A DNA stretch of 64,000 nt, taken from NCBI GenBank assembly GCA_020723305.1, contig DYJC01000003.1:62584-126583 (forward strand). Reading direction: 5' to 3'. Below, piece by piece: positions 24,439 to 48,165 of this stretch; positions within the stretch are counted from its first letter, which is position 1; each line of letters opens with the position of its first letter. A model generated the notes under the pieces. The model saw nothing but the letters and a program-made list of their open reading frames with translations. It was not told where the DNA came from and made no database searches. The DNA comes from Desulfosudis oleivorans. GTDB taxonomy: Bacteria > Desulfobacterota > Desulfobacteria > Desulfobacterales > SURF-7. The position numbers were made by a program, and so were the translations under genes.

Positions 24439-25929
24439 CTACATGGCATTGAAACGCCCCACCATATCATGCAACTGATTGGCAAGCTGCATCAACTCTT
24501 TCACACTGGCATTCACCTTGGCGCTTCTGTCTGCCATACTTCCGGCAGCCTGATTTGCTTTGGCAATGTCTTTTGAGATTTCCTCGGCTACTGTTGAATT
24601 CTGAGCCATACTCCGGTTGATTTCCGAAATTCCCTGAGAGGATTGGGCGATGTTCCCAGCGATCTCTTTGGTGGTTGAAGACTGTTCCTCGACAGAGGAA
24701 GAGATAATCACGACATAATTATTCAATTCATGAATAACCTCTGATATTTCGGTGATCTTATTCACGGTTTCCGCTGTAGCGGCTTGAATGTCTTCGATCT
24801 GCCGTTTTATCTGCTGCGTAGCGTTGGACGTCTGCTTTGCCAATTCCTTAATTTCGTTGGCCACTACGGAGAAACCTTTCCCCGCTTCTCCGGCCCGGGC
24901 AGCCTCAATCGTTGCATTCAGGGCCAGAAGGTTTGTCTGTTCGGAAATGTCTTTTATCGTTTCGGTTACCTTTCCCACCTCTTTGGCTGTCTGACCCAGT
25001 TTATGGACCAGGTCGGAAATAATTTTTGACTGGGAAACCGTATTCTGGGCGACCACCTGGGTACGATTTGTATTTTCCGCTATCTCATTGATGGTACTCG
25101 TCATCTGTTCAACCGATGAAGCGACCATGTTTGCATTCGTGGACAGTTGTTCTATGGAGGCGGCCACCGATTTTGTATTCGTGCCAAACTGTTCGTACGC
25201 GCCTGCTACATTATCCGAAATTTTGGACATATCGCCGGCGCCAATGGACATCTGATCCGACAGATCCGACAGCCCTTTTGACGAACTATTTAAAATTTCG
25301 GCATTTTTCTGTATTTCCAGGATCGCCTCCTCCAGCTTCAACTTGTTTGAAGTAAGCTCTTTTTCCCTGCCTTTCAGCTTGTTCCGGATTGTATTCATGT
25401 AGGTTCCGATATAGGTAAGCCAGCCTAATCCCAGGAAACAGATGACCCATTGAACAATATTCTGGATAAGACTGAAATCCTGAGGCGGAGACAGAATATC
25501 CAGGATAATGACAACCCCATATCCTGTCAGCGCAGCCAGGGATACAAAAATAAACCCGGACATTGTAAGCTGAAAAGCTCCGAACAGAATGGTTAAAAAA
25601 TATAAAGCCATGACCGCCCCTCGGAGATCTTGGACAAAGTACATGAAATACGATATATAGACAGTGCCCGCAGATATCTGAAAAACAGTCATGCTGGGAT
25701 CTGTAAAATCCTTGTTTAGACCACTCCGAATGATGATGAAAATAAGGGACTGCGTAAAAACCATGACCGCCAAGAAAATGATTTGATGACCCATGGACAT
25801 GGCAACCAGACCCGACTGCATGGCAACGACAATCACGATTGCACAGATAACGAAAAAGGCATTTGCCATGAACAGTCTCTTTATCCGGAATGCTTGTTTT
25901 TTGTCCTCTCTGGGAATGATTGAAAACAT
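24439..25929 (-). CDS. Methyl-accepting chemotaxis protein with polytopic membrane sensor
   Basis: 496 residues. About six hydrophobic helices (residues 18-180) without a large periplasmic loop, then a cytoplasmic coiled-coil signalling domain with the conserved hairpin tip [42 protein letters not shown] domain is not evident. The membrane-embedded sensor suggests detection of membrane or energy state rather than a periplasmic ligand. GGAG five bases upstream of the ATG. No che genes nearby, so it must feed a chemosensory array coded elsewhere. Confidence 0.93.
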
Positions 25930-26057: not shown

Positions 26058-26114
26058 AGGGGTGTAATCAAAACTGTTGAATAATCGAAACCCAACACTT
26101 TTCATTACACCCCT
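26058..26114. repeat. Long-loop inverted repeat
   Basis: AGGGGTGTAAT at 26058-26068 is matched by ATTACACCCCT at 26104-26114: 11-bp perfect arms with a 35-base loop. No T-run directly follows on the plus strand beyond TTTGG. It lies between the chemoreceptor promoter region and the degV-tail relic. It could be a weak bidirectional terminator or the end of a small mobile element. Confidence 0.5.
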
Positions 26115-26165
26115 TTGGCCTGATTCTCATTGAAATTTGTAAGCGGGCGAGGCCGCCCAACAGCT

Positions 26166-26224
26166 GACCCCTAAGGTCAGGGAAAGGGGACGGGTCATGA
26201 TAGTGAATAAGGGGAATTCTGTTT
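26166..26224 (-). pseudogene. Relic of the 3' end of a degV (FakB-like) gene
   Basis: 59 bases match 36244-36302, inside the 3' end of the FakA-FakB fusion gene, at 51 of 59 positions without gaps. Translated in the same frame on the minus strand it reads KTEFPLFTIMTRPLSLTLGV against KTEFPLSDIMIRPLSLTSGV in the intact protein. Nothing upstream in this position continues the gene. It is therefore a gene-tail copy in the same orientation as the intact gene, separated from it by the regulator and the seven-gene catabolic operon. Confidence 0.8.
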
Positions 26225-26252
26225 GGGTTTAATTCATATCATTGGTTGATCC

Positions 26253-27116
26253 TCAAAACGAATTCTTTCCACCTGGCACCAACCGGCTTGTAATCAGGTC
26301 TGCGATAAAATCCATAACATCCTGCAACGTATATTTACGATCCAGCGAAAGTCTTAAAGACATGATCTCGACCAGTCCGGTCAACGCGTAGGCCAGCAAA
26401 TCCGGATCGATTTTGGTAATGACCCCTTCCTGAACGGCGGCTTTAATCTCCTGAATCACTGGCTTTGTCAGTCCATGATAGATTTTCTTGATTTTTTCTT
26501 CCGGCCACTGATCATCGCTTGCCATTTCAGCACGCAACTGATTTAAAATTTCATTGTATCTGATGTAATTTTCATAAAAAATCTTACCCCTGATTTGCAT
26601 CCTTTTAGCAAAATCATTTTCTCCCTTGATGGCGATGGCTGCTTCGCCCACAATATTGCGAAACACATCATCAATCACTTCGATAAACAAATCCCTTTTA
26701 TTTTTGAAATAAATATAAAATGTGCCGGTAGAAATATTGAGCGGATCGGTTATATCAATCACTTTGGTGCGGTGATATCCTTTCCGGCTGAAAACCTCTA
26801 TAGCTGTTTTAATGATTCCCTGTCGTTTTTTTTCCTTTTCTTTATTCGTGACCACTGTTTTACGGACATCATATTCTTGAGATATAGACTGTGGTGAAGC
26901 TTCAGTTCCTCCAATTTTTTCTTTTAGAAAAGATAACGGCACCCGTGAGCCTTTCTTTACATTTTCGATCTGCTTGAGCCGCTGAAGATGGCTTTCATCA
27001 TAGTATGCCATAGTGCGGCCTGTTTTTTGGGGTGGATGAAGCAATCCATGGCGAAGATAAAAATGAATCTTCGTGCGCGGCAAACCTGATTTTTCCACAA
27101 GTTCTTTTATTTTCAT
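26253..27116 (-). CDS. MerR-TetR dual-HTH transcriptional regulator
   Basis: 287 residues. The N-terminus (1 to about 70) is a MerR-type winged helix: MKIKELVEKSGLPRTKIHFYLRHGLLHPP followed by YYDESHLQRLKQIENVKKG. A linker leads into a TetR N-terminal domain (about 97-145: GIIKTAIEVFSRKGYHRTKV, STGTFYIYFKNKRDLF) and a helical TetR-type ligand domain to the end. Two different DNA-binding domains in one protein are unusual. It faces the catabolic operon at 27411 across a 294-bp gap carrying repeated CTATAG sites, so it very likely controls that operon and itself, probably with an acyl-CoA ligand. Confidence 0.9.
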   Translation of the reverse strand: MKIKELVEKSGLPRTKIHFYLRHGLLHPPQKTGRTMAYYDESHLQRLKQIENVKKGSRVPLSFLKEKIGGTEASPQSISQEYDVRKTVVTNKEKEKKRQGIIKTAIEVFSRKGYHRTKVIDITDPLNISTGTFYIYFKNKRDLFIEVIDDVFRNIVGEAAIAIKGENDFAKRMQIRGKIFYENYIRYNEILNQLRAEMASDDQWPEEKIKKIYHGLTKPVIQEIKAAVQEGVITKIDPDLLAYALTGLVEIMSLRLSLDRKYTLQDVMDFIADLITSRLVPGGKNSF

Positions 27117-27140
27117 TTATAGATGTCTCCTGTTGATAAA

Positions 27141-27344
27141 CTATAGATTTTAACTCTATAGATTATAAAAGCATGATTTCAGAATCTTCAATGCATACCA
27201 GATGAATTCCGTTTTTACAATAAAAAAATATTATTAATTAAATATGTTATTTCTGTTCACTTGATTTCGGACATTTGGTTCAAAAAATGTTGACCGATGA
27301 ATCGCTATAGACTAATTATAGAAACAACACGTCATTTTCTATAG
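27141..27344. promoter_or_regulatory. CTATAG operator cluster between the MerR-TetR gene and the catabolic operon
   Basis: Palindromic hexamer CTATAG followed by A occurs at 27141-27146, 27156-27161, 27305-27310 and 27339-27344, with a variant TTATAG near 27317. The copies form two groups, one next to each divergent gene. In the first group they are 15 bp apart, roughly 1.5 helical turns. I infer binding sites for the two-headed MerR-TetR regulator. The rest of the gap (27162-27304) is AT-rich without further structure; the operon start at 27411 has GGAGACGTGA ahead of its ATG. Confidence 0.6.
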
Positions 27345-27410
27345 ATTTAGCAATGCCGTGGAATTGTGTCAATGGATAAATCGATATTTTTTTTTAGTAT
27401 GGAGACGTGA

Positions 27411-28592
27411 ATGGGAAAGAAAAATCTTGCAATTATCGGGGTTGGAGAGGTTCCGACCGGAACCTATCCGGACCGGTCACAGTGGGACATCATTTATGAA
27501 ACCAGCATACAGGCTGTAAGGGATGCGGGAATTCATAAAAATGATGTGGAAGGGGTTATCGCTGTCGCCCCTCAAGCACAGCCGCAGCTTACGGCTGAAA
27601 TATCTTTCGGGAAAATACCGGAGGAGCTTGGCTTAAAGGGATGCAAGGATGTCTGCATCTGCAATGCCGGCGGCGCATCCACATCCAACTGTCTGCGCCT
27701 GGCAGAACAGATGATTGAAAGTAATCAGGCAAAAATCGTTCTGATTCCCCATGTCACGGTTCACTCTACCATACCCATACCGGATCTGATCAATTTTTTT
27801 GCGAAAGCAGGTATCGATCTTCAGTGGGAGTATCCATACGGTACCACGTACAACGGGATCATTGCCATGATGACGAGGCGATACATGCATGAATCCGGAA
27901 CAACCGAAGAAGAAATGGCATCGGTTGTTGTTTCCTTGCGGAAATGGGCGGCACTGGACCCCAATTCTATTTTTTACGGCAAAGAAGTCCCGACGATTGA
28001 GAAAGTCCTGTCATCCAGCATGGTATCGTCTCCTCTGCATAAACGTGAATGTAATGTACTGGCAGATGGAGGCGCTGCACTGGTGGTGACTTCGGCTGAA
28101 TATGCAAAACAGATGAAATGCCCGGCAGCTTGTAAACTCGGTGAGAGTTCACGATATTTCAGCGCGTTTACGACCACCCGGAGCACGGAACGTGTAAAAG
28201 AAGGTTTTCGTGATGCCACGGATGAAGCCTTGGCAGATGCCGGGGTATCAAAGGAAGAGATCGATATCTGGAATGTATACCTGGCGTATCCGGTAGGACA
28301 TCCCATGTTTATGGAAACTATCGGCCTTTGTAAACCTGGTCAGGCAGGAAAGATGTTTATGGAGGGTCATACATGGCCTGGCGGAAGAATGCCGTGGGCG
28401 ACCATCGGCGACGCCATTGGCCGGGGACATACCGGTTCCGGTGTCAGCATGGCAACCTATGTGGAAACCGCCAGACAGCTCATGGGAAAAGCCGGGGCTA
28501 GGCAGGTGAAGGATGCCGAATATGTATTTCAAAACACTTCCGGCGGATCGGGCATGAACTTCATCGCAACCGTGTGGGGGAGGAATAGATAA
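27411..28592 (+). CDS. Thiolase-like acyl-CoA acetyltransferase (SCP-X/BbsB type)
   Basis: 393 residues. Starts KNLAIIGVGEVPTGTYPDRSQWDIIYET, typical for the thiolase-like lipid-transfer subgroup. The Cys of DVCICNAGGAST lies about residue 90 where the nucleophile is expected; a late GRGHTGSG motif supplies the His. These proteins work with DUF35 zinc/OB-fold partners, as in the BbsA/BbsB thiolase of benzylsuccinate degradation. The partner domain is supplied by the very next gene, which begins within the stop codon (TAATG). Predicted: thiolytic release of acetyl-CoA or related cleavage of a 3-oxoacyl-CoA. Confidence 0.85.
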   Translation: MGKKNLAIIGVGEVPTGTYPDRSQWDIIYETSIQAVRDAGIHKNDVEGVIAVAPQAQPQLTAEISFGKIPEELGLKGCKDVCICNAGGASTSNCLRLAEQMIESNQAKIVLIPHVTVHSTIPIPDLINFFAKAGIDLQWEYPYGTTYNGIIAMMTRRYMHESGTTEEEMASVVVSLRKWAALDPNSIFYGKEVPTIEKVLSSSMVSSPLHKRECNVLADGGAALVVTSAEYAKQMKCPAACKLGESSRYFSAFTTTRSTERVKEGFRDATDEALADAGVSKEEIDIWNVYLAYPVGHPMFMETIGLCKPGQAGKMFMEGHTWPGGRMPWATIGDAIGRGHTGSGVSMATYVETARQLMGKAGARQVKDAEYVFQNTSGGSGMNFIATVWGRNR

Positions 28593-29908
28593 TGGACACT
28601 CAAAAACCAACACCCGTCATACAACCCTGGACCAAAGAATTCTGGAAGGCCACCCAACAGGGCAAACTTCTGGTTCAACATTGCAAGGATTGCAACAGCA
28701 AAATCTTTTTCCCGAAAAAAGTCTGTCCGGAATGCTGGTCTGAAAACCTGAACTGGATCGAATCCACCGGCAAGGCCAAGGTCTATACTTATACCGAGAT
28801 GATCGACATGGTAGAGCCCAAATTTATGGCGGATCTTCCCTATATCATTGCCATGGTGGATCTGGATGAAGGTATCCGCATGACCACCCGGATTGTCAAT
28901 TGCAAATCCGAAGACGTGGCCATCGGCATGGATGTTGAAGTTGTTTTTCAGGAAATATCGCCGGAATGCTCTTTGCCCGTGTTTCAGCCAACGGATATAT
29001 CACTGAGGATCAAAACAACCGATCCAAAAGAAACGGAAACAAAGGTTCCGGAATTTGAAACCCGCTTACAACCTGAGAATTACCAGGCGATCCAATATGA
29101 AATCGGCGGTAAAAATAATGTGGTCTGTTTCATTACCTTGAACCGGCCGGACAAATATAATGCCATCAATCGGCGCATGGCCGCTGAACTCATCGACGCT
29201 TTCCGCCGAGTGAGAGAGATCCCTGCCGTGGGCGTTGTTGTATTGACTGGCGCCGGCAAAGCATTCTGCACCGGCGGCGATCTTGAAATTTTCCCGTCCC
29301 TTGCCGGACATCAAAACAGTCTCAACTGGCTGTCCCATGAAGGACTTGATGTTCAGCGGGCCATCACAAGTTGCGAGAAGGTCGTCATCTGTAAAATCAA
29401 CGGACACTGTCTTGCGGGCGGCCTTGAAATCGCCCTGGCTTGTGATCTTCTTTATGCCGGAGAATCAGCCAAGATGGGAACCACGGAAATCAACATGGGC
29501 ATTCTGCCCGGATGGGGTGGAACCGCCCGATTGCCGAGAAGCATGCCTATTTTCCGCGCCCGGGAAATCATCTTCAGCGGCCGGAAAGACTATACGGCAA
29601 GAGAAATGTACGACATGGGCCTGCTGACAAGAGTTTTTAAAGATGATGAATTTGAATTTCAATTTGAAAAAGTGGTGAACAATATTGCTTCCAAGAAACC
29701 CATTGCACTTCGAATGGGCAAGGAAATCATGGCCCGGTCTGTTGACGGCTGTGATATAGAGACCGCCCTTGCGGTAGAACGAAACGGCATCCAGTGGTTG
29801 ACCTATTCACCCGATATTCAGTCGGTGATGGATCAGTTCAGAGCCAGTCCCGATCAACTGACACAGCAGCAGAAACAGCAAAATATCCGATCCGATGCCA
29901 AGAAATGA
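28592..29908 (+). CDS. DUF35 zinc-ribbon/OB-fold fused to enoyl-CoA hydratase
   Basis: 438 residues. Residues 1 to about 135: rubredoxin-like zinc ribbon (Cys31, Cys34, Cys45, Cys48) plus OB-fold, the DUF35 partner of thiolases. Residues about 165-430: crotonase fold with both catalytic Glu positions kept (HCLAGGLEIALACDL and GTTEINMGILPGWGGTARL) and oxyanion-hole region LTGAGKAFCTGGDLE. The fusion would physically couple hydration of an enoyl-CoA to thiolysis by the neighbouring thiolase. I know DUF35 and crotonase as separate genes; the fusion looks genuine, as there is no stop or frameshift between them. Confidence 0.9.
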   Translation: MDTQKPTPVIQPWTKEFWKATQQGKLLVQHCKDCNSKIFFPKKVCPECWSENLNWIESTGKAKVYTYTEMIDMVEPKFMADLPYIIAMVDLDEGIRMTTRIVNCKSEDVAIGMDVEVVFQEISPECSLPVFQPTDISLRIKTTDPKETETKVPEFETRLQPENYQAIQYEIGGKNNVVCFITLNRPDKYNAINRRMAAELIDAFRRVREIPAVGVVVLTGAGKAFCTGGDLEIFPSLAGHQNSLNWLSHEGLDVQRAITSCEKVVICKINGHCLAGGLEIALACDLLYAGESAKMGTTEINMGILPGWGGTARLPRSMPIFRAREIIFSGRKDYTAREMYDMGLLTRVFKDDEFEFQFEKVVNNIASKKPIALRMGKEIMARSVDGCDIETALAVERNGIQWLTYSPDIQSVMDQFRASPDQLTQQQKQQNIRSDAKK

Positions 29909-29922
29909 TAAGGAGAGATACC

Positions 29923-31086
29923 ATGGATTTTGGTTTCACGAAAGAACAGGAAATGATCCGCAATGAAATGACCCGGTTCTGCAAAAAGGAATTGAACAAG
30001 GAGTATGTTGCCTGGATGGATGAAAACGTGGATTTTCCCCCTCCTGAATTGTGGCGGAAATTCATCGACATCGGTATGTTTCAATACAATATTCCAGAAG
30101 AATATGGCGGGGAGGGACTTGGGATGGTGGATGGCATGATTGCCTTTGAAGAGATCTGCAAGGCCTCTATGTCGGTTGCTCTGGCCGTGGGGACAACCAT
30201 CGGTTTCGGCACCCGCTTTATTGTGGAAATGGGAACCGCTGTCCAGAAAGAAAAATACCTCCCGCTCCTGGGTGAAGGCAAACTGAAAATGTGTATGGCC
30301 CTGACCGAGCCGGCCGGTGGCACCGATATCCTGGGGTCTGTCGCAACCTTTGCTCAAGAAAAGGAAGGACGATGGGTGATCAATGGTGAAAAGGTCTTTA
30401 TCACCGGTGCGCATGTTTCAGATTTTATGATTACGGTTTGCAGGACGGAAACCGATGCCAAACCCAGCCAATCCCTTTCCGTGTTTTTGATACCCTCGGG
30501 GTCCAAGGGCATCACCATCAACCGTATCCCCAAGATCAGTTGCCACCACTGTGATTCCGTGGGAATCACCTTTTCCGGTGTGGAAATTCCGTCGGAAAAC
30601 ATTCTGGGAACCCGCGGCAACGGCTGGTATGAGATGCTGACGATCCTTAATCCGGAACGTATCGGTTGTGCCATGATGGGGGTTGGACTTATGGCTGCCG
30701 CCTATGAGGATGCTTTTCAGTATGCCCGGCAGCGTCAGGCTTTCGGTGGCCCCATCAGCCGCTTTCAGATATTGCAGCATTATCTGGCCGATATGTACAT
30801 CAATCTGGAAAATGCCCGGAACCTGACTTACAAGGCAGCGTGGTTATGCGATCAGGGCAAACCCTACCATCTGGAAGCCACCATGGCCAAGCTGGTTGCG
30901 TCGGAAGGAGCCCTGCATGCCGGCCGGTTCGGGGCTGAAATCATGGGGGGATACGGCATCTGTAATGAATATTCCATGCAGCGCTATCTGCGGGATGCCT
31001 ATCAACTGCAATTCTCGCCCATTTCAAACGAGATGAGCAAGAACATGCTGATGCAGTTTCAGGGATTGCCTAAGTCGTGGGCATAA
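29923..31086 (+). CDS. Acyl-CoA dehydrogenase
   Basis: 387 residues from ATG 29923 (AAGGAGA eight bases upstream; a longer in-frame reading from 29794 overlaps the previous gene in another frame and is rejected). Shows N-terminal helices, KMCMALTEPAGGTD (FAD/substrate motif), FITGAHVSDF and, near the end, GGYGICNEYSMQRYLRDAY with the Glu at the usual catalytic place. A flavoenzyme that would introduce the 2,3-double bond used by the hydratase. Electron acceptor (ETF) genes are not in the window. Confidence 0.92.
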   Translation: MDFGFTKEQEMIRNEMTRFCKKELNKEYVAWMDENVDFPPPELWRKFIDIGMFQYNIPEEYGGEGLGMVDGMIAFEEICKASMSVALAVGTTIGFGTRFIVEMGTAVQKEKYLPLLGEGKLKMCMALTEPAGGTDILGSVATFAQEKEGRWVINGEKVFITGAHVSDFMITVCRTETDAKPSQSLSVFLIPSGSKGITINRIPKISCHHCDSVGITFSGVEIPSENILGTRGNGWYEMLTILNPERIGCAMMGVGLMAAAYEDAFQYARQRQAFGGPISRFQILQHYLADMYINLENARNLTYKAAWLCDQGKPYHLEATMAKLVASEGALHAGRFGAEIMGGYGICNEYSMQRYLRDAYQLQFSPISNEMSKNMLMQFQGLPKSWA

Positions 31087-31187
31087 ACAGAAATGAAAAA
31101 ACCGCATTCAAAGTTCCATGGTTTCAAACAGAATCGCAGGACGTTGAACAGGAGCTACAACTAATTGAAACATAAGGAGATATATCC

Positions 31188-32741
31188 ATGTATACCTTAG
31201 GCGACATTCCACGAAAAAGTGCACTGAATTTTCCGGATAAAGAAGCCATCGTCTTTGAACAAACCCGGCTGACCTATGAAAAACTGAATCATCGCATCAA
31301 CCGCCTTGCAAACGCTCTGGCAAAAATGGGATGCAGATCCGGAGACCGGCTTACGGTGCTGGCGGAAAACACCCACAAATATCTCGAAGTCTATTTTGCC
31401 GCCGCTAAAATGGGCTTGAGCGTGACACCGCTGAATTTCAGACTGTCGGATGATGAAATTATTCACATTGTAAATGATAGTGAGGCTTCCTGTTTTTTTA
31501 TCGGGGATACATATGAAGAGCGGGTGTCAAAAATGCATGATCGCCTTCAGGCGATTAATGCCTGGATAACATTTGACAGTCAATCACCGGGATTTATTTT
31601 TTATGAAGACATGCTGAAGGATGCTTCAGATAAAGAACCGGATGTTGAGGTAGATGAAGACGATCTGACAGTATTGATGTATACCGGCGGAACCACCGGC
31701 CTTCCGAAAGGAGTCATGCTATCCCATCGCAACATCATGACCGGCGTGATCAGCGCCAACCTGATGTCCAATATTACCAGCGAGGATGCTACCTGTTTTG
31801 TACTGCCGTTATTTCATGTGTCTTTCTGGCCGGCTTTTTGTCTGCTGCTGGCCGGCGGAAAAGTGGCCATTAACCGGAAACCCGACCTCAACGAGATCCT
31901 GCGTATCATACAGGATGAACGCTGCACCCACATGAACGCCGTGCCCACGGTTTACGGGTGGCTGCTGCAATTCGGAAATGTGGAAGGATATGATCTTTCA
32001 AGCCTTAAACTACTATCCTATGCCGGCAGTCCTTTTCCACCGGAAGTTTTAAAACAGTGCATGGAAAAATTCGGTCTGATCTTTGCCCAGGGCTATGGCG
32101 CGACAGAAACTGCAGGCGGTGCGATCAGCCTTTTGAGGAATGAAGATCATGCTGTGTCAGGTTCTAAAGCCAAACTTCTTGTAAGCGCCGGGAAGGCGTC
32201 TTTATGTGCGGAAATCCGTATTGTGGATGAAAGCGGGTTGGCATTGCCATTCAATGCAATCGGCGAAATTGCTGTTAAGGGCAGGCATGTCATGATGGGA
32301 TACTGGAAAAATCCGGAAATGACTGAAAAAGCGTTACGAGGCGGCTGGTATCATACCGGCGATATGGGATTCATGGATGAGGATGGGTATCTTTATCTGG
32401 TGGACCGCAAGGCAGACATGATCGTTACCGGAGGTGAAAATGTGTACCCAAAAGAAGTTGAAGATGTTCTTTATGAACATCCGGCTGTTTCCATGGTGGC
32501 TGTGGTATCGGCTCCGGATCAAAAATGGGGGGAACGTGTCCAGGCCGTAGTGGTTCTGAAGCCTGATCAAATATCAACGGAAGAAGAACTCATCGATTTT
32601 TGCAAAAAAAAACTGGGAGGCTACAAATGTCCCAAAGCCATTGAATTTTGGGAATCGATTCCAACTACACCCATTGGAAAAATTCTACGCAAGGATGTGA
32701 AGAAAAAGTTCTGGGAAGGTTATGAACGTTCCGTCGGATAA
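31188..32741 (+). CDS. Acyl-CoA synthetase (AMP-forming)
   Basis: 517 residues with complete ANL motifs: YTGGTTGLPKGVMLSH (P-loop), GYGATETAG, YHTGDMGFMDEDGYLYLVDRKADMI and PIGKILRKDV with the catalytic Lys. AAGGAG seven bases upstream of the ATG. In this operon it would activate the incoming carboxylic acid to its CoA thioester, the first step of the pathway. It is a full two-domain ligase of usual length; sequence alone does not tell aromatic from aliphatic substrates. Confidence 0.92.
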   Translation: MYTLGDIPRKSALNFPDKEAIVFEQTRLTYEKLNHRINRLANALAKMGCRSGDRLTVLAENTHKYLEVYFAAAKMGLSVTPLNFRLSDDEIIHIVNDSEASCFFIGDTYEERVSKMHDRLQAINAWITFDSQSPGFIFYEDMLKDASDKEPDVEVDEDDLTVLMYTGGTTGLPKGVMLSHRNIMTGVISANLMSNITSEDATCFVLPLFHVSFWPAFCLLLAGGKVAINRKPDLNEILRIIQDERCTHMNAVPTVYGWLLQFGNVEGYDLSSLKLLSYAGSPFPPEVLKQCMEKFGLIFAQGYGATETAGGAISLLRNEDHAVSGSKAKLLVSAGKASLCAEIRIVDESGLALPFNAIGEIAVKGRHVMMGYWKNPEMTEKALRGGWYHTGDMGFMDEDGYLYLVDRKADMIVTGGENVYPKEVEDVLYEHPAVSMVAVVSAPDQKWGERVQAVVVLKPDQISTEEELIDFCKKKLGGYKCPKAIEFWESIPTTPIGKILRKDVKKKFWEGYERSVG

Positions 32742-32808
32742 TTTCGATACATCATATTGATCGGGAAAAAAACAAATTGGGCCATTAATAAACCATCAAG
32801 GAGGCATC

Positions 32809-33816
32809 ATGAGCAAATTTGAAAAAGACAATTATTTTAAAATCGATCCCGAGCCCCACCTGCTCGGCGACATGGAAGTGATCAACCATTTTCCGGGAGT
32901 TCAAATGTGGTGGCGGGCCATCGAAAATATTCATCGGCCCTTGATTACCGGTATGCCGATTGAAGCCTATGAGGGTATGGAAGAGTGGGAGATGTTGAAA
33001 ACCGCTGACCCGAATTCTTTACTGGCTGCTATGGACAAGTATGGTGTGGACATCGCCTGCCTGTTGCCGGAGTCCATGATGGATACCACCGGTTACACCA
33101 GCCGATGGTGCACCAATGGCGGAATGGCAAAAATAGTTGAGTCTCATCCGGATCGTTTCATGTATCAGCCGAACATTTCGCCCATCAAGCACAAGGGCGT
33201 ACAGAATACCATCTGGGAGCTGGAATACTGGGTCAAAGAAAAAGGGGCAAAGATATTCAAATTTTATCCTCCGGAAGATACCTATATCAATGATCCGGAT
33301 CTGTGGCCCTTTTATAAAAAAGCAGAAGAACTGAATATTGTGCTGGATATACATACCGGTTTCTGCTGGGTTCCTCCTGGTAAAAGCAAGTATGCGCTGC
33401 CTATATATTTAGATGATGTGGCAAGGGATTTTCCCGGTTTGAAAATCAATGCATTTCATATGGGATATCCCTATTGTGACGATTTAAATATGATCGCCAT
33501 GGGGCATCCCAATGTCTTTGTATGTTTAAGCCTTTTGCTGCCCTGGGCGCTGTGTGCGCCGAGAAAATTCGCCAAGATCATCGGTGAAGCGCTCCGCTGG
33601 GTGGGTCCGGACAAGATTATCTGGGGAACGGACTATGCAGGATACGGCGCTCAGATCCGGAGCGCCGTCATGGGTATGAGAAAGTTTCAGATCCCGGAAG
33701 ATATGCAGAAAGATTTCGGATATCCATCCATTACCGATGAAGACCGTAAAAAAATATTTGGCGGAAACCTGGCCCGGCTGCTGGGTGTGGATACAACAAA
33801 AAGACGGGTGAAATAA
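32809..33816 (+). CDS. Amidohydrolase-2 family protein (ACMSD-like TIM barrel)
   Basis: 335 residues. C-terminal half keeps the barrel metal-site features of the family: LDIHTGFCW, NAFHMGYPYCDDL and IIWGTDYAGYG. The N-terminal HxH motif of zinc members is not intact: the sequence reads IDPEPHLLG, with Glu-Pro-His where Asp-x-His-x-His is usual. Members are decarboxylases or hydrolases of cyclic acids. In the operon it could cleave or decarboxylate a ring-derived acid. Strong ribosome site AAGGAGG. Confidence 0.8.
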   Translation: MSKFEKDNYFKIDPEPHLLGDMEVINHFPGVQMWWRAIENIHRPLITGMPIEAYEGMEEWEMLKTADPNSLLAAMDKYGVDIACLLPESMMDTTGYTSRWCTNGGMAKIVESHPDRFMYQPNISPIKHKGVQNTIWELEYWVKEKGAKIFKFYPPEDTYINDPDLWPFYKKAEELNIVLDIHTGFCWVPPGKSKYALPIYLDDVARDFPGLKINAFHMGYPYCDDLNMIAMGHPNVFVCLSLLLPWALCAPRKFAKIIGEALRWVGPDKIIWGTDYAGYGAQIRSAVMGMRKFQIPEDMQKDFGYPSITDEDRKKIFGGNLARLLGVDTTKRRVK

Positions 33817-33889
33817 TCAATAGAAAACGAAGTTACCACTTTTTAAAAAAATCACAGATCTCATAAACCGGCAAAAAGGGAGATAGATT

Positions 33890-35296
33890 ATGAGTTATGA
33901 TGCTTTATTTGAGCCGATCACCATCGGTGATATGGAACTGAAAAACCGGCTGGCAGTTGCGCCTATGAATGTAGGATATGCTGCACCGGATGGATATCCC
34001 AATGATCAGTATCTGGCACATTATGCCACACGGGCGCGGGGCGGCTTCGGCCTTATCATCACAACCGCAGCCATGGTCAATCCTCATGAATGGGCCGGCA
34101 GCGAGAAAATGAATCCTCTGAAATTTACGGATCATCGATATTATCGATTCTGGAGTGAGATCATCAAGGCCATCCATTACTACGACGGTTGTAAAATCGC
34201 CATTCAATTGAGTCCTGGCTGGGGCCGTCAGGGTCATCCGAATGTTGGCCGACCGGATGTTCCCGCCGGAGCGCCTTCTTGTGTTCCGCTTTGTATGGAT
34301 ATCAGGGATTATTTCAAAAAATGCAAAGGCAATATCACACAGATGAAAAAGAAGATTCCGCTGGAAGTGTTCAACAGCATGGATATTGAAGGAATCATCC
34401 GGATGCCGGATGAGGAATATTTTTCAGCGGATTTCCAGAAATTTATGCAGGATGCCCTTTCCCAATTGCAACCTGAAATGTTTCATTTTATCTGGGGAGA
34501 TGTGCCCCGGGAACTGACAATCCCGGAAATCAGAGATCTGGAAGACCGTATGGCTACGCAGGCCAAAGCTGCATTTGATCTGGAATTTGACGCAGTGGAA
34601 ATCCACAGCCCCCACGGTTACCTGATTCACCAGTTCCTTTCTCCGAAGATGAACAAACGGAAAGACGAATATGGCGGCAGTCTGGAAAACAGGGCACGAT
34701 TTCTGGTGAATATCATAAAAAAAATAAGAAAAAAGGTCGGACCTGACAAGCCGGTCTGGTGCCGACTGAGCGGCGATGAATTGCAGCCCGGCGGCATTCA
34801 CCATGAGGAGCAGTGCCAGGTGGCAGCCATGGCAAAAGATGCTGGTGTCAATGCCATCAATGTCTCCCAGGGGAGCTACGAAGCCATGGGCAGTGCATTT
34901 GCTCCTGACGGCGAAGGTGATTTTACGAGGTGGGCCCCTGGATTTAAAAAGGCAACCAATGGCCTTCCTATCATTGTACCTAATTTTCTGACTCCGGGGT
35001 GTGCGGAAAAGGCGATCAAGGAACAGTCCGTGGATATTATTGAACTGGGCCGGCAATCCCTGGCGGATCCGTTCTGGCCGGTCAAGGTAAAAACCGGCAG
35101 GGAAAAGGAGATCATCAAATGCATCCGGTGTCAGCAATGTTATGTGGAGTTTGGTGCAAACCATTTTCTGGATTGTGCCGTCAATCCATTGACCGGCCGG
35201 GAAAAATATTTTCCAAAGCTGTGGCTTAACGACACAACATTCGGTAATCGTTTGGAAAAGGTTATTAAAAAAATGGAAGGGTTTCAGCAGATATAG
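33890..35296 (+). CDS. Old Yellow Enzyme-type FMN reductase with Fe-S motif
   Basis: 468 residues. FMN TIM barrel of the 2,4-dienoyl-CoA reductase/OYE type: LFEPITIGDMELKNRLAVAPM, VEIHSPHGYLIHQFLSPKMNKRKDEYGG (substrate His pair), and ELGRQSLADP. The C-terminus has CIRCQQC and a fourth Cys eleven residues on (Cys411, 414, 417, 429), fitting a [4Fe-4S] cluster. The FAD/NAD domain of the 670-residue family members is absent, so an external electron donor is needed. A roughly 60-residue insertion around 140-205 is unusual. Predicted: reduction of an activated C=C bond. Confidence 0.88.
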   Translation: MSYDALFEPITIGDMELKNRLAVAPMNVGYAAPDGYPNDQYLAHYATRARGGFGLIITTAAMVNPHEWAGSEKMNPLKFTDHRYYRFWSEIIKAIHYYDGCKIAIQLSPGWGRQGHPNVGRPDVPAGAPSCVPLCMDIRDYFKKCKGNITQMKKKIPLEVFNSMDIEGIIRMPDEEYFSADFQKFMQDALSQLQPEMFHFIWGDVPRELTIPEIRDLEDRMATQAKAAFDLEFDAVEIHSPHGYLIHQFLSPKMNKRKDEYGGSLENRARFLVNIIKKIRKKVGPDKPVWCRLSGDELQPGGIHHEEQCQVAAMAKDAGVNAINVSQGSYEAMGSAFAPDGEGDFTRWAPGFKKATNGLPIIVPNFLTPGCAEKAIKEQSVDIIELGRQSLADPFWPVKVKTGREKEIIKCIRCQQCYVEFGANHFLDCAVNPLTGREKYFPKLWLNDTTFGNRLEKVIKKMEGFQQI

Positions 35297-35326
35297 CTTC
35301 TTTTTACTCCTATTGAAGGATCCAAT

Positions 35327-36157
35327 ATGAAGATTTTATCTGGAAAAACAGCCTTGGTTACAGGTGCATCCCGGGGCCTTGGAAGAGCCATTGCGTTAGC
35401 CCTTGGCAATGCAGGCGCGGATGTCGCGGTCACCGATCTTCTGATTGAAAAGGAAGCGGTTGATAAAGAAAAAATGTCTGAATATGGGCTGCTTGCCTCT
35501 TATTTCACTGAAACAGAAAACATCCGGACGATTTCAACTGCCGATGAAATAGAGAAACTCGGGTCTCGGAGTCTGGGCATAAAAATGGATGTTACCAATC
35601 CAGATGACCTTCAAAAAGCGATTGCTCAAACAAGGGGTAAATTTGGAAAGATCGATATCCTCGTTAACAATGCAGGGGTAATGGAAAATATGGCCATGCT
35701 TGAACATCAAACTGAGCAGATGTGGGAAAGAGATTTGAAAGTGAATTTAACCGGTTGCTTTAACTGTATCCGGGCTGTCTGGCAGCAAATGAAACAAAAA
35801 CAGTGGGGACGGATAATTATTATCTCATCATTTGTCGGCTTACACGGTGCTTTTGCTCAGCCGGGATATGGTGCATCCAAAGCCGGTTTGATTGGACTTA
35901 CGAAATCTCTGGCATTAGAAGGTGCCAGATATGGAATCACCGTCAATGCTGTTTTGCCGGGATTTATTGAAACAGAAGCTGTTAAGTTGCACGATCCTAA
36001 GATGCTTGATCGGATTAAAGCGCGAACCCCGATGAAACGTATGGGAACACCCGAAGAAATTACTCCGTTAGTCGTTTTTCTGGCAGGTGAAGGTGCAAGT
36101 TTTATAACAGGGGCTGCAATCCCGGTCACCGGAGGCGCTGATCTGTTTGTTTTTTAG
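35327..36157 (+). CDS. Short-chain dehydrogenase/reductase
   Basis: 276 residues: TGASRGLG cofactor loop, NNAG, IISSF with catalytic Ser, YGASKAG (Tyr/Lys), ending ITGAAIPVTGG. An extra segment of about 25 residues after the second strand (EKEAVDKEKMSEYGLLASYF) is longer than in FabG. Ribosome site GAAGGA. Last gene of the catabolic operon; expected to oxidise a hydroxyacyl-CoA or alcohol intermediate. The next gene is convergent, 35 bp away, and its 3' tail has a relic at 26166. Confidence 0.9.
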   Translation: MKILSGKTALVTGASRGLGRAIALALGNAGADVAVTDLLIEKEAVDKEKMSEYGLLASYFTETENIRTISTADEIEKLGSRSLGIKMDVTNPDDLQKAIAQTRGKFGKIDILVNNAGVMENMAMLEHQTEQMWERDLKVNLTGCFNCIRAVWQQMKQKQWGRIIIISSFVGLHGAFAQPGYGASKAGLIGLTKSLALEGARYGITVNAVLPGFIETEAVKLHDPKMLDRIKARTPMKRMGTPEEITPLVVFLAGEGASFITGAAIPVTGGADLFVF

Positions 36158-36192
36158 AGTTCAAGGGGTATCCATATATAAAGACCTCTCTC

Positions 36193-37911
36193 CTATGCAG
36201 AAACCGGCAGAAACGCAACCGCCCAGGTGCCGGGCCCTGTATGGACTCCCGAGGTCAGGGAAAGGGGGCGGATCATGATATCGGATAAGGGGAATTCTGT
36301 TTTGATTCTGTTTTGTACAATTTCAGATACCCAGTCCGGATTGTCCGTATACTGAATCAGGACAGAGACCGCTGATTTTGGATTCAGGGTTGCATGCAGC
36401 TTTTTCAGGAGAATTTTTAATTGATCCTCCTGGTTGCGGGCCATGGCGACTTTTTGGGCTCCCTGGGCTGTGGGCGTAACCACGGGTTTGAGATGAAGCA
36501 TGTCACCGAAAAAAGCACTGGCTTTGGAGGTTCTGCCGCCCCGTGCCAGGTATTTCAGGCAGTCCACAAACAGATACTCCTGACACTGGTCAACCGCATG
36601 TTGTGCAAATTTTTTTACCTGATCCGGATTATCGGTTTGGTTCGCATGCATGGCGGTAGCAATCGCCGTAAGCCCCAGCCGTCCGGAAGCTGCCCCTGTA
36701 TCGATCACTGTAAACCGGTCTTCCGGATCGTTCTTCTGCTTCCACTCCATGGCAATATCATAATTGCCGGTATAGAAAGAACCGACACAGAGATATAAGA
36801 CCTGGTCATATTGATCCAGGGCGCTCTGGTAATACTGATGCCTTTCAAATTCAGAGGCCTGGGAAGTGGATGCTTTTTCTCCCTGTTTCATGATACGGTA
36901 TAGGTCCTCAGGAAGAAAGCAGGTTTCCGGCAGGGATTGATCTCCGGCTGTGATATAGCTGTCCAGAAGGGTCATCCTCAGGTGTGCGGCATCTTCCCGG
37001 GTTACGGACCCGGCCGCATCGGTCATGATATGAATGGATTGTTCTTTTGGTCTGGATTGAAAGTTTCTGACCTGGGAGATCAGGTCTTCCTCCGACCATT
37101 TTACCAATGAGCCCAGAGATTTCATCTTTTCCCGCACAGCGTCTTTGTCATCCGCATGCAGGTGAATTTTCAGAAAATCTTTTTCCGGGACAATGACAAT
37201 ACTGTCCCCATATTCGGAAAGCCTTTTGATCTCTTCTTCAATCCCGTTTTCCGGCCGAAGCACCATGTCAATACAATAGTGTTTCTGATCTGTTTCATGA
37301 AAGGATGACCGGATCTCCAGACGGTTTTGAAAGATGGATGCGATTGGACGGAAGGGCCCCATCCGGCCGGTCAGACCGGTCAGAAAACCATCCAGATAGA
37401 TAAACATGCCCAAGGCTCCGGAATCCACGACATTGGCTTCCTGGAGCCGGGGAAGGTGATCGGTTGTCGAGTGCACGGCGTTTTGCAGATGGTCAATCAC
37501 TCTGGATGCATATTCTTCAATGCTGTCCGGCTTTGTTTTTTCCGTGATATCCACCAGAGCGTCAAAGATGTCCAGCATGGTTCCTTTCCGGGGGTTCCGG
37601 ATGGCTTTCCAGGCCAGATCCCGCCCCAGCCTTGCAGCCGCAGGAATGGATTCAAGAGAGTCGGCTGTCAGAAATCCGGAAAAGAAACGGGCGGCAATAA
37701 TGCCTGAGTTCCCGCGGGCGGACAGGAGAAGATGGTGGATGACTGTTTTTGAATCGCTTTCAATTTTCCTTAGCGGGCCAAGGGTTACCAGAAGATTGCG
37801 CCCTGTATCCCCGTCCGCAACCGGGAAAACATTGATGGTATCTAAGAGGTCTGACCATGCGGCAACCCGTTCAACGCCGGTGATCCATGCTTTTTGAAAT
37901 CGGTTATCCAT
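36193..37911 (-). CDS. FakA-FakB-type fusion: DhaL/Dak kinase plus DegV fatty-acid-binding domain
   Basis: 572 residues from ATG 37911 (37944 is an alternative). About 1-200: DhaL (Dak2) domain with TINVFPVADGDTGRNL (metal-binding Asp33, Asp35) and LLSARGNSGI. About 215-300: FakA-type middle domain (GDSIVIVPEKDFLKIHLHADD). About 305-572: DegV/FakB domain (MTDAAGSVT, CVGSFYTGNYDIA, LARGGRTSKA). FakA and FakB, normally separate, phosphorylate exogenous fatty acids; here enzyme and fatty-acid carrier are in one chain. Downstream of a thioesterase gene with overlapping start. The last about 110 bp have a decayed copy near 26166. Confidence 0.87.
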   Translation of the reverse strand: MDNRFQKAWITGVERVAAWSDLLDTINVFPVADGDTGRNLLVTLGPLRKIESDSKTVIHHLLLSARGNSGIIAARFFSGFLTADSLESIPAAARLGRDLAWKAIRNPRKGTMLDIFDALVDITEKTKPDSIEEYASRVIDHLQNAVHSTTDHLPRLQEANVVDSGALGMFIYLDGFLTGLTGRMGPFRPIASIFQNRLEIRSSFHETDQKHYCIDMVLRPENGIEEEIKRLSEYGDSIVIVPEKDFLKIHLHADDKDAVREKMKSLGSLVKWSEEDLISQVRNFQSRPKEQSIHIMTDAAGSVTREDAAHLRMTLLDSYITAGDQSLPETCFLPEDLYRIMKQGEKASTSQASEFERHQYYQSALDQYDQVLYLCVGSFYTGNYDIAMEWKQKNDPEDRFTVIDTGAASGRLGLTAIATAMHANQTDNPDQVKKFAQHAVDQCQEYLFVDCLKYLARGGRTSKASAFFGDMLHLKPVVTPTAQGAQKVAMARNQEDQLKILLKKLHATLNPKSAVSVLIQYTDNPDWVSEIVQNRIKTEFPLSDIMIRPLSLTSGVHTGPGTWAVAFLPVSA

Positions 37912-38353
37912 GATGAGTAAAACCCAATGCCTTTTGGATATCATCCGGTATCCGCAGCATCAGTGCATTGCCCGGCAGTGTGACCGCTGCCTGCTCTCCC
38001 GTGCCTTTGCAGCAGATCTCATTGCGGTCTGAATACCGGATCTGAAAATCAATGACGATTTTCGTGTATGCCTGAACAAGAGTGGCCTTGCAGATAACCC
38101 GGTCCCGGTGCCGGAGCGGTATGATATGTTTGGTTGTGGTCTTGATGATCGGGAAAATAATGTTTGTTTTCCGGTAATAATCCTGAAGATCGATGTTCTG
38201 TTTTTCGAAAAGCGCAAAACGGGCCATGTCAAAATATTTTAAATAGTTGCCATGCCATACAATCTGCAATGGGTCCAGGTCATGAAACGGAACCACAATA
38301 TCAATTTCCGTACTGGGAAGATGAGTGCTTTTCATGTTATGTTTATCGGTCAT
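37904..38353 (-). CDS. Acyl-CoA thioesterase (4HBT/YbgC hotdog)
   Basis: 149 residues from ATG 38353. I rejected a much longer in-frame reading from 38731, because its first 126 codons cover the neighbouring membrane-protein gene and look non-protein-like (Cys/Arg rich). The motif VPFHDLDPLQIVWHGNYLKYFDMAR is the 4HBT active-site signature, with Asp27 as catalytic residue. Hydrolyses acyl-CoA or acyl-ACP to free fatty acid, which the fused fatty-acid kinase gene next door could then phosphorylate. It overlaps both neighbours (ATGA upstream). Confidence 0.88.
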   Translation of the reverse strand: MTDKHNMKSTHLPSTEIDIVVPFHDLDPLQIVWHGNYLKYFDMARFALFEKQNIDLQDYYRKTNIIFPIIKTTTKHIIPLRHRDRVICKATLVQAYTKIVIDFQIRYSDRNEICCKGTGEQAAVTLPGNALMLRIPDDIQKALGFTHHG

Positions 38354-44479: not shown

Positions 44480-45838
44480 ATGAAATCCATCGGCCGATAT
44501 GAAATAAGAGCCATGCTGGGACAGGGCGGAATGGGCAGGGTATATAAGGTCATCATACCGGGGATCCATAAGATTGCAGCGGTAAAAAGTCTGGAACCCA
44601 GTCCCAAACTGGTTGAAAAAATGGGAATGAACCGGCTGCGGGAGCAGTTTATTCAGGAAGCTTCCATTATTGCCAATATCCGTCATCCCAATGTTGTCGA
44701 GGTCTGGAGTCTGGAAGAAACAGATGGCCGATTGTTTTATGTGATGGAGTATTTTTGTCATAACCTGGGTACCCTGATCGGGGAGGCGTATTGGGCGGAT
44801 TCCTCCACGCGGGTGGTTCGTGTGGAAAAGGCGGTGAAGGCTATTCTTGATGTCCTGCAAGGGCTGTCCCGGCTTCACCATGAGGGCATCCTTCATCAGG
44901 ATATCAAGCCGTTCAATATCATGTTTACCGATTCGGAAACAGCAAAGATTGTGGATTTCGGGCTTTCCCGGAAAAGGGGGGAGTCTTCGGCAGAAGGGGA
45001 GGGAATCCTGATCGGCACCAAGTTTTATGCAGCTCCGGAACAGATCACGGCCCCGGACGATGCTGATCACCGGGCGGATCTCTATTCTGCGGGGGTTATG
45101 CTGTACCGCATGGTAACCGGCCGGCTGCCCAAACCCATACCTGAACCGCCCTCCCATCTGAATCCGGATCTTACTTCACTATGGGATCGATTGATCCTGA
45201 AATCCATTGATCCGGCTCCGGATCAACGGTTTCAGGATGCGGAAAAGATGTCAATGGCAATCCGGGAAATCTATGCCCGGTATCGGAAAAACAAAGAGAT
45301 GGCGTGTACCCTTCCCGATGCTTCCGGAAAATCGGCTGAATCGGAGCAAGCCCGGACGCATCTTACGGCTCCTCTTCGTTCCAAGGCCGGACGCATCCTG
45401 GCCAAACAGGGAAAATCCGTGTTCGGGATCAATGACCTGTATCGCCCCATGACCTATATTCAGAACCGTATTGATGCGATTCAGGATGATCTTCTGATGG
45501 ATCACACAACCGGATTGATCTGGCAGGGTTCAGGCTCCCCATATCCTGTTTCCTGGGACCAGACCTTGGAATATGTGCAGCAGATCAATGAAAAAAAGAT
45601 GGGCGGATATGATCGATGGCGACTGCCTACCGTGAATGAACTTCTGTCTTTATTAAACCCACCTCCCCCGGGAGAGGACTTCTGTTTCCAATCCCCTTTT
45701 TCATCCGTTCAAAAATGGATCTGGAGCGGGGATACCCGGTCCGACAGGGCTTCCTGGGTAGTGAATCTTGAAATGGGTTTTGTGATGTCCGGTGATGTCA
45801 TGGATTTTTTTTATGTCCGGGCGGTTTGCAGTTTATGA
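44480..45838 (+). CDS. Ser/Thr protein kinase with C-terminal DUF1566/Lcl-type domain
   Basis: 452 residues from ATG 44480 (AGG before it; the longer in-frame reading from 44312 lies inside the NapH-like gene and is rejected). Kinase domain about 5-275: GQGGMGRVYK, AAVKSLE with the catalytic Lys, LHQDIKPFNI (HQD instead of HRD, Asp141 kept), VDFGLS, AAPEQ. Residues about 335-452: DUF1566-type lectin-like domain (DHTTGLIWQ, WRLPTVNELLSLL, WSGDT, YVRAVC). No membrane segment. The last 75 bases reappear downstream (see the repeats at 48166 and 48923). Confidence 0.87.
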   Translation: MKSIGRYEIRAMLGQGGMGRVYKVIIPGIHKIAAVKSLEPSPKLVEKMGMNRLREQFIQEASIIANIRHPNVVEVWSLEETDGRLFYVMEYFCHNLGTLIGEAYWADSSTRVVRVEKAVKAILDVLQGLSRLHHEGILHQDIKPFNIMFTDSETAKIVDFGLSRKRGESSAEGEGILIGTKFYAAPEQITAPDDADHRADLYSAGVMLYRMVTGRLPKPIPEPPSHLNPDLTSLWDRLILKSIDPAPDQRFQDAEKMSMAIREIYARYRKNKEMACTLPDASGKSAESEQARTHLTAPLRSKAGRILAKQGKSVFGINDLYRPMTYIQNRIDAIQDDLLMDHTTGLIWQGSGSPYPVSWDQTLEYVQQINEKKMGGYDRWRLPTVNELLSLLNPPPPGEDFCFQSPFSSVQKWIWSGDTRSDRASWVVNLEMGFVMSGDVMDFFYVRAVCSL

Positions 45839-45846
45839 TTGTGTTC
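45772..45846 (+). repeat. Intact copy of the kinase-gene tail repeat (copy A)
   Basis: The last coding bases and the stop region of the kinase gene. Bases 45772-45798 match 48166-48192 at 25 of 27; bases 45782-45846 match 48923-48986 with nine mismatches and one gap. All copies have the same orientation. Copies B and C together reconstitute one further decayed tail. Confidence 0.85.
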
Positions 45847-45856
45847 AATATCATCT

Positions 45857-47803
45857 TCAGGCCAATGCAGGCAGGGTGAAGATAAACCGGACCCACTGGT
45901 CGCCCTGGCATTCGGCCCAGATCTTGCCGCCATGCTTGTGAACAATATTTTGAGTAATGAAGAGTCCCAACCCTGTGCCTTGGGCCAACCCCTCAGCGCG
46001 CCGCAGGCGAACGAATTTGTCAAATACCTGCGCGAGTTGTGCCTCGGAGAGGTTATCCCCCTCGTTCCACACCTCGAAGCGGAGTTCGGATTTGCCGGCA
46101 GCCAGAGTCAGGCGGATGGCGCCGCCAGGGCGGCCATACTTGACGGCATTGTCCAGGAGGTTTTTGTAAACCACCTGCAACAGATCGCGGTCGCCTGTAA
46201 GAGGAACAGCTTCGGGCAACTCGTTGCTCACCTTTATCTGCCTTGCGGCCAGTGTGTCGCGGAATTCCGATAGCAGAGGCGTCACCACATCTCTGACCAT
46301 ATCCATGGGTTGCGGACGGACTTGAAGTTCGCCTTTTTCGATACGCGACAGATCCAGATATTTACGCGTCATGCCTACGGCCTTGTCAATGCTCGTGGTG
46401 ATATTGGCCACCAGGTTGGCCTGGGCCGGGGACAGCGGGCCGATGGTCGTCATACTGAGAGCCTTGGCTGAAGTAAAAATCACGCCCAGTGTGTTTTTCA
46501 GCTCATGGGAGACAAAGCCAAGCATGTCCAGATAATTGCGGTTGACCATATGTAGCGACCGGTTGGTCTGGTCCAGTTCCGCGTTGGCTTTTTTCATTCC
46601 CTCTTCGCGCTCCTCGAGCCGTTCGGCCATGAAATTGAACGCCTTGGTCAGATCGCGTACCTCATCATCCGTGGCCGGATCAGGCACGCGCATCTTCAGA
46701 CGGCCTCCTGCAATTTCTGAAGCGGCATTGGCCAGGCTGCTGATGGAGCCGGTGAGGCGCCGCGCAAAGAGAAACCCAAGGGCCAGGACAAGCACAACAG
46801 CTCCCAGGGAAAGCAGACCGTATAGGGTCCACAGATCGCGTTTCAAATCGTCATACTGCCGGGCCAGCACCCCCACATAGAGAATGCCGATCACCCGTCC
46901 ATCGATATCATGGAGAGGATCGTAGGCGCTCAGGTACCAGTCGTTGACCACAAAGGCCCGGTCATAATAGGGCCGGTTGTTTTCCAGCACCGTATCGTAA
47001 ACTGTTTCGCTGACCCGCGTACCGATAGCCCGATTGCCGTTGACGGTTTTGACATTGGTGGCCACCCGGCTGTCCCACTGGAAAATGGTCACTGTGCCGG
47101 GTTGTTTTCCTTTATAAAGACGGTCTTCGAAGACAATGGATTGGATCTTGTCCACCAGGGCGTGGTTGCGGTTGAGCAGGATGCCGGCATAGAGCACTCC
47201 CTTGCGCGCTCCGGTTTCATCGTCCACGGGGGTCGCGGCTACCAGGGCCAGGCCGGTTGTCTCAGCATTTTTGGCCCTGAGTTTGGCCCGGGCCGTGGGT
47301 TCGAACACCATGAATGCCTTTTCTTCCAGATCGCCGCCTTCGGCTTGCAGCCGGCCCGCATCCATCAGGGCAAAACCGCTCACGGTTTCACCTTTGAGCG
47401 CCCGAACCATGAATGGGTCCTGGGTAAGGTAGTCACCGGTGTGGTAAGGGGCAAGGGTACGCAGGATAACGCGTCCTTTGGTGTCGGTGAGGCTGAGAAA
47501 GTCGCATCGGCCCTGGCGGCGTGCCAGTTCCAGCATCGCCCGAATTCCTTCGGCTGCTGGTTGTTGGAATGCCTCCTGTACTCGCTTGCCGCCGCTCAAT
47601 GCTCCCAAAAAAAGTTCCAGACCGTCCAATTCGCTCTGCACGACGCTCCATGCCGAGCGCAGATCTAAGCTCACTCTTCGCTGAGCTTCGTTTACCGTTG
47701 AACGGTTAATCAGAAAGGCCCCTACGGCCCCGGCCAGCAACCCGAAGAGGGCGATGACCAGCACGAAGTTCAGAAAGATGCGTTTGTATAGTTGCACTCT
47801 CAT
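45857..47803 (-). CDS. Membrane sensor histidine kinase (Cache-HAMP-HisKA-HATPase)
   Basis: 648 residues. A first helix (about 8-32), a periplasmic double-Cache-like sensor (about 35-325, with SLTDTKGRVILRTLAPYHTGDYL and GILYVGVLARQYDDL), a second helix (about 330-350), HAMP, then HisKA with FVSHELKNTLGVIFTSAK and HATPase with NLLDNAVKYGRPGG and GTGLGLFITQNIVHKHGG. Its coding DNA is much richer in G and C than its neighbours, suggesting foreign origin. It is convergent with the Ser/Thr kinase gene, 18 bp away, and stands between two copies of that gene's tail. No response regulator is adjacent. Confidence 0.93.
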   Translation of the reverse strand: MRVQLYKRIFLNFVLVIALFGLLAGAVGAFLINRSTVNEAQRRVSLDLRSAWSVVQSELDGLELFLGALSGGKRVQEAFQQPAAEGIRAMLELARRQGRCDFLSLTDTKGRVILRTLAPYHTGDYLTQDPFMVRALKGETVSGFALMDAGRLQAEGGDLEEKAFMVFEPTARAKLRAKNAETTGLALVAATPVDDETGARKGVLYAGILLNRNHALVDKIQSIVFEDRLYKGKQPGTVTIFQWDSRVATNVKTVNGNRAIGTRVSETVYDTVLENNRPYYDRAFVVNDWYLSAYDPLHDIDGRVIGILYVGVLARQYDDLKRDLWTLYGLLSLGAVVLVLALGFLFARRLTGSISSLANAASEIAGGRLKMRVPDPATDDEVRDLTKAFNFMAERLEEREEGMKKANAELDQTNRSLHMVNRNYLDMLGFVSHELKNTLGVIFTSAKALSMTTIGPLSPAQANLVANITTSIDKAVGMTRKYLDLSRIEKGELQVRPQPMDMVRDVVTPLLSEFRDTLAARQIKVSNELPEAVPLTGDRDLLQVVYKNLLDNAVKYGRPGGAIRLTLAAGKSELRFEVWNEGDNLSEAQLAQVFDKFVRLRRAEGLAQGTGLGLFITQNIVHKHGGKIWAECQGDQWVRFIFTLPALA

Positions 47804-48165
47804 GGATTACACCTTGGGAATTCACATATTGCAAAAACCGGGCAAGGCTGATGCATTGCTCCGGACAGAAACCGACACATGCCTGACTGGACGTCACCAA
47901 TGCAGGAAGGACGCATCTTGTGGAACGGTGTCCGGTGGATTGACAGTCTGTAAAATCGGTTGACACTCTCTATGAAAGACCATGCGGCGACCATGAAGAT
48001 TTATCCAGTTGAAATAGTTAATAAATTGGCAACGCACACAAATCATCTTTCTCTGATCATAAGGTGCGGTATGCCCAAAATTTATATTTTCATTGATGAG
48101 TATCTGCTAAAATCAAGCCAGAGATAAGCGGAAAAAGATCAAACATCAACAAGTTCATTTTTTAG
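47804..48165. other. Non-coding gap upstream of the sensor kinase
   Basis: About 360 bases without a credible gene. It should contain the promoter of the leftward histidine kinase. Two TTGACA-like hexamers point rightwards near 47939 and 47961 but have no convincing -10 partners. The right end runs into the tail repeat copy B. Confidence 0.5.

Follow-up and report, generated by a model that had tools for sequence, protein, structure and literature searches.

A degV tail fragment beside a patchy catabolic operon as a possible recombinase-free insertion scar in a sulfate reducer

A short piece of the 3′ tail of the DAK2-DegV fusion gene (degV) lies at the far end of a regulator gene and catabolic operon in a 64,000-nucleotide stretch of a Desulfosudis oleivorans assembly (the window; genome G000, 5.40 Mb in 47 contigs), and we put the probability at about 0.5 that this relic was displaced by foreign DNA carrying the catabolic module, which entered just behind degV. 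The best reading of the arrangement is a recombinase-free insertion scar, made by one-sided homology and illegitimate joining, and not an integrative element. The strongest support comes from two other genes of the same genome, encoding a kinase and a PilZ protein, whose displaced tails have empty sites as counterparts in other genomes. The degV locus is probably an insertion scar of an already known kind, and its interest lies in the recurrence of the signature and in those empty sites. Coordinates are collected in Table 1.

Table 1 Features of the window (bare coordinates) and further displaced tails in the same genome (coordinates with contig)
Feature	Coordinates	Strand	Remarks
Chemoreceptor beyond the relic	24439..25929	-	90% DNA identity with G002; homology ends just before the relic
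Palindromic dispersed repeat	26059..26115		Next to the relic, toward the chemoreceptor; dozens of copies across the genus
degV tail relic	26166..26224	-	Non-coding displaced copy of the last part of DAK2-DegV; direct repeat
MerR-TetR fusion regulator	26253..27116	-	First cargo gene beside the relic; Pfam MerR_1 + TetR_N
Seven-gene catabolic operon	27411..36157	+	Patchy in the order
DAK2/FakA-like - DegV fusion gene	36193..37944	-	Homology with congener degV stops at 36198
Intact degV tail	36244..36302	-	Counterpart of the relic
Intact tail of Pkinase-Lcl_C (Ser/Thr-kinase) gene	45779..45846	+	Includes bases beyond the stop
Cargo behind the kinase gene	45852..48919		sCache histidine kinase + PIN/RHH pair; absent in G001 and G003
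Displaced kinase tail	48920..48986	+	Frameshifted; joined to native downstream gene
Ddl-like gene and relic	C1:179601-180632; relic 173667-173736		71%
Penicillin-binding-protein-like gene and relic	C45:141219-143618; relic ~134600-134676		Relic partly overlaps a dispersed repeat
PilZ gene and relic	C45:291724-292137; relic 294571-294629

The relic and the degV tail form a direct repeat on the same strand (26166-26229 against 36244-36307, 84% over 64 nt, E ~2e-13 for the pair within the genome). The first 59 bases of the repeat, 51 of them identical, are in the degV reading frame, and the first-pass annotation was right about this copy in coordinates, orientation, frame and identity, as well as about the intact tail that is its counterpart. 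Read in the degV frame the relic gives TEFPLFTIMTRPLSLTLGV and the intact tail TEFPLSDIMIRPLSLTSGV; the final ~48 bp of the coding tail (HTGPGTWAVAFLPVSA) are absent from the relic, whose 3′ end is therefore incomplete. The changes private to the relic (S to F, I to T and S to L) all alter the amino acid, as expected once a sequence stops coding, and the relic is, to judge from its sequence, a decaying remnant of the degV tail. It is also the sole close second copy of the degV-tail 64-mer in the genome, the other matches being chance runs of 14-17 nt. A dispersed repeat of the REP or MITE type was considered and rejected, since the genome contains no further close match to the 59-mer; the adjoining repeat at 26059-26115 does belong to that type. 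The 59 bp were compared with three congeners (G001, G002 and G003, Desulfobacteraceae MAGs, one of them labelled Desulfocicer vacuolatum), and the intact tail was closest to that of G002 (55/59). One relic codon has the state common to G000 and G002 (TTA) and another the state of G001 and G003 (Thr, with Asp in G000 and G002); on this small evidence, the relic may have separated from degV earlier than the divergence of G000 and G002, or may derive from a related lineage.

Between the two tail copies stand only the MerR-TetR gene and the seven operon genes, encoding a thiolase-like protein, a ChsH2-enoyl-CoA hydratase, an acyl-CoA dehydrogenase, an acyl-CoA ligase, an amidohydrolase, an OYE-like oxidoreductase and an SDR. 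A Pfam search of the interval found no recombinase, bearing out the annotated contents (regulator, seven-gene operon, no integrase). The marks of foreign origin in this cargo are the patchiness of the operon and an amidohydrolase closer to that of another genus: the gene was found in 15 of the 194 genomes of the order, and the protein is 90% identical to its counterpart in a genome of another genus (G006), whose degV is just 49% identical. The OYE-like protein is 85% identical to that of a genome of another family and 32% identical to the one in the G001 operon. The GC content of the cargo is ordinary, at 46.7%. From these sequence comparisons, the catabolic module is taken to be horizontally patchy, with a shuffled gene order. 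The product of 28592-29908 is a single protein that joins a ChsH2-type zinc ribbon/OB domain to an enoyl-CoA hydratase.

Comparison of contig C1 with itself yielded one other isolated pair of this type, also in the window, between the tail of a Ser/Thr-kinase gene and a copy behind its cargo (45779-45846 against 48920-48986, 84%). The displaced copy, shortened by a 1-bp deletion, leads into a metallophosphoesterase gene. The intervening cargo is 3.1 kb long, contains no recombinase or recombinase remnant, and includes a histidine kinase gene of 57% GC against 44.5%, a sign of foreign origin. G003 (89%) and G001 (77%) have a contiguous empty site, with nothing between the kinase tail and the phosphoesterase gene, and G002 has the kinase-tail relic with the same 1-bp deletion. 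The kinase case is direct evidence that an insertion can be marked by such a tail copy. A diversity-generating retroelement was considered here since the tail encodes an Lcl_C domain; this was rejected, as the tails of G001 and G003 are nearly the same, with no variation, and the second copy is frameshifted.

The genome was scanned for further displaced tails by searching for copies of gene tails within 25-30 kb, over ~1.6 Mb and later 2.0 Mb of the 5.4 Mb. Five tails had credible low-copy matches, all downstream, on the same strand and in non-coding sequence: those of degV, the kinase gene, and genes for Ddl-like, penicillin-binding-protein-like and PilZ proteins, the last three named from reading the sequences and not from a family search. 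The penicillin-binding-protein-like case was lost under a stricter copy-number filter. Upstream and opposite-strand controls in the same scan gave no credible case, their matches being judged paralogues, tandem repeats or MITE-like copies, and in the gene-head control the matches were judged paralogues or repeats, plus one further head match at C45:160846-161373. Five tails against none in the upstream and opposite-strand controls is suggestive and not conclusive, the numbers being small. For PilZ, the site is empty in G001 and G007 and filled in G003 and G002, and the cargo holds no recombinase or remnant. At the Ddl-like locus of G001 the neighbours are unchanged and enclose a different gene; in G002 the cargo seen in G000 also adjoins Ddl. 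In several cases the first 10-18 bases of the tail copies are identical; no motif common to the five sites was seen by eye, and none of the 16 tRNAs in the scanned 2 Mb has a nearby displaced 3′ end.

At degV itself the relatives present a more complicated picture. The thioesterase-like upstream neighbour is kept in G001 and G002, the downstream neighbours differ in each genome, and the contig of G003 ends inside degV. In G001, the radical-SAM cluster that in the window stands beyond the chemoreceptor is ~3 kb away from degV, which indicates that the interval is an old variable one. In G002 and G003 the 3′ end of degV carries a GDMLSDDPKTMD-type extension that is missing in the window, where homology does not reach beyond 36198, one residue short of the end of the gene, placing a breakpoint at 36197/36198. 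A site in which the degV tail joins the chemoreceptor side directly, the comparison proposed by the first-pass annotation, was found in none of the three congeners. In G002, the closest of them, the position that the relic occupies in the window, next to the chemoreceptor, is taken up by 4.1 kb encoding a two-component system and one other gene; only the dispersed repeat of this cassette was found in G000. Then comes a TetR gene that has an internal deletion and is fused to the end of an OYE gene (G002 C97 6964-7736), apparently at a short GTGCG microhomology. G000 and G002 thus have the chemoreceptor-TetR order in common, and G002 lacks the relic. The G001 operon (67-75% DNA identity) is on another contig, also with no relic. 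The annotation had named an operon standing without the relic as an observation against its island, and taken literally this is what G002 (as a remnant) and G001 have; later loss of the relic in G002 could explain its operon remnant.

Under the preferred reading, insertion behind degV without a recombinase, incoming DNA would have paired with the end of degV, so that the tail was kept or restored on the gene side, and the other end of the incoming DNA would have been attached within the old tail by illegitimate joining. What was left of the old tail would then have been displaced beyond the cargo and have decayed there. A site-specific recombinase is not required: homology-facilitated illegitimate recombination, or a comparable one-sided event, would suffice, and the same process would have put cargo behind the kinase and PilZ genes in this lineage. 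One-sided homology with an illegitimate second junction accounts for an intact gene at one end of the cargo and a fragment of its tail at the other. The kinase and PilZ junctions, compared with their empty sites, are compatible with a homologous anchor plus a non-homologous junction. The one-sided step at degV, read from anatomy alone, would have followed the same route as in those two cases and would predate the split of G000 and G002. Several observations count against this reading. The degV empty site is absent, cargo GC is ordinary, and in G002 chemoreceptor and TetR-operon remnant stand together with no relic and an unswitched degV end. A further deletion must also be assumed to account for the ~48 bp missing from the end of the relic. 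Finally, another degV-tail relic lies on contig C4, which indicates that degV tails can land away from such cargo.

That last observation bears on the strongest rival at degV, which owes its standing to G002. Here the operon would already have stood beside the chemoreceptor, the degV tail copy would have arrived at the chemoreceptor-TetR junction in an event of its own, as a stray ectopic fragment, and a deletion or rearrangement cutting degV at 36197/36198 would later have made the operon its neighbour. The chemoreceptor-TetR order common to G000 and G002, with a degV junction that is not, the 3′ extension of degV in G002 and G003, and stray degV-tail relics on G000 C4 and G003 C166 all favour such a course. 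Against it, the relic has the orientation and place expected of an insertion scar, the kinase and PilZ genes have scars of this type with empty sites, and the two-component cassette of G002, exactly at the relic spot, could have removed a relic there. We consider this course possible, though clearly less probable than insertion behind degV. A complete second degV gene, of which all but the tail was lost, has the homology itself in its favour and nothing more; no degV sequence upstream of the tail is left between the relic and the TetR gene, no relative examined has two complete degV genes at the stringency used, and the other scanned cases are likewise tails only. We regard this origin as very improbable.

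Two further rivals concern the mechanism of insertion. The first-pass annotation had read the locus as the footprint of an integrative element. In a decayed, CIME-like version, a site-specific integrase would have targeted the degV 3′ end and placed the cargo there, an element-borne tail would have restored the gene, and the integrase would have been lost or acted in trans. A direct repeat of the gene's 3′ end does flank the cargo, the geometry is that of attL and attR at a gene 3′ end, and the identical bases at the start of several tail copies are also in keeping with it. Nevertheless, an integrase gene is missing from the putative element, neither recombinase nor remnant occurs in the degV, kinase or PilZ cargos, which hold ordinary genes only, the five genes are different with no common motif seen by eye, and tRNA tails in the scanned part are not duplicated. 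Of that claim, the displaced tail as an insertion scar is supported by the kinase and PilZ empty sites and the patchy operon; an element with att sites is not supported, and we regard such an origin as rather unlikely. Less likely still is an insertion with an unusually long (45-110 bp) target duplication by end joining at a staggered break, in which both copies come from the same genome. The intact and displaced kinase copies do have the same 13 bases after the stop, which differ in G003. Such scars, however, would be expected equally often between genes as at tails, and no low-copy intergenic pair exceeded the score limit in 380 kb of C1, although neutral copies fade faster.

CIMEs are cis-mobilizable elements that have attL and attR and no integrase. 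Like genomic islands in gene 3′ ends and CIMEs, the degV arrangement has a whole gene on one side, a tail copy on the other and cargo between; unlike them, it contains neither an integrase nor the remains of one, no site or core motif common to the cases was seen, and the cargo consists of ordinary genes only. Homology-facilitated illegitimate recombination has been described in Acinetobacter, Pseudomonas stutzeri and Streptococcus pneumoniae. It is also known experimentally from E. coli conjugation (PMC3240628). In that process, as in the scar proposed here, one end joins by homology and the other without it, foreign DNA is gained without a dedicated recombinase, and host remnants are possible; those are mainly laboratory events, whereas here the process would be deduced from a gene-tail signature that recurs among the scars of a sulfate reducer. 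One-sided homology has also been proposed for displaced effector 3′ ends in Vibrio cholerae T6SS clusters (PMC5361080). There, and at orphan Rhs/CDI 3′ regions, insertion behind a shared anchor similarly shifts the old 3′ end downstream of the cargo, but in those loci variable toxin ends are swapped under selection, while here the tail is conserved and the cargo consists of unrelated metabolism or signalling genes.

The recurrence of the scar in this genome suggests that new genes are placed immediately behind resident ones with no integrase dedicated to the task. That an uncharacterised recombinase-free or trans-acting process in Desulfobacteraceae repeatedly adds kilobase cargos behind genes, keeping the gene whole, shifting a 45-110 bp tail copy to the far end and using 3′ ends as general landing sites, is a doubtful extension. 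Gene-tail relics with empty sites in relatives are datable acquisition scars that integrase- or tRNA-based island finders miss, and if the signature is general, such relics would allow operon additions by ordinary recombination to be counted against those by mobile elements.

The C4 relic (~206 bp, C4:1472-1667, 76%) is longer and older than the one in the window, and a related copy lies at G003 C166:7204-7406 (80%). These two, from two species, have common deletions and a common flanking dispersed repeat, and their further flanks differ, apparently in different places; together they indicate that the degV 3′ end was involved in more than one event. An Rfam search of the window gave no match. 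The palindromic repeat beside the window relic is ~53-57 bp long (GGGGTGTAAT...ATTACACCCC), has dozens of copies in G000, G002 and G003, and often occurs as a half-site plus a full site ~120 bp apart. An apparent integron array at C1:347659-352277 was rejected, as its several copies, with AAATATAAAGGG ends, look like a MITE-like repeat also present in G002 (C97, near 7750-7830). Another repeat, ~120 bp at G002 C97 ~6683-6815, occurs about 40 times or more in each of G000, G002 and G003 and has one match in G001.
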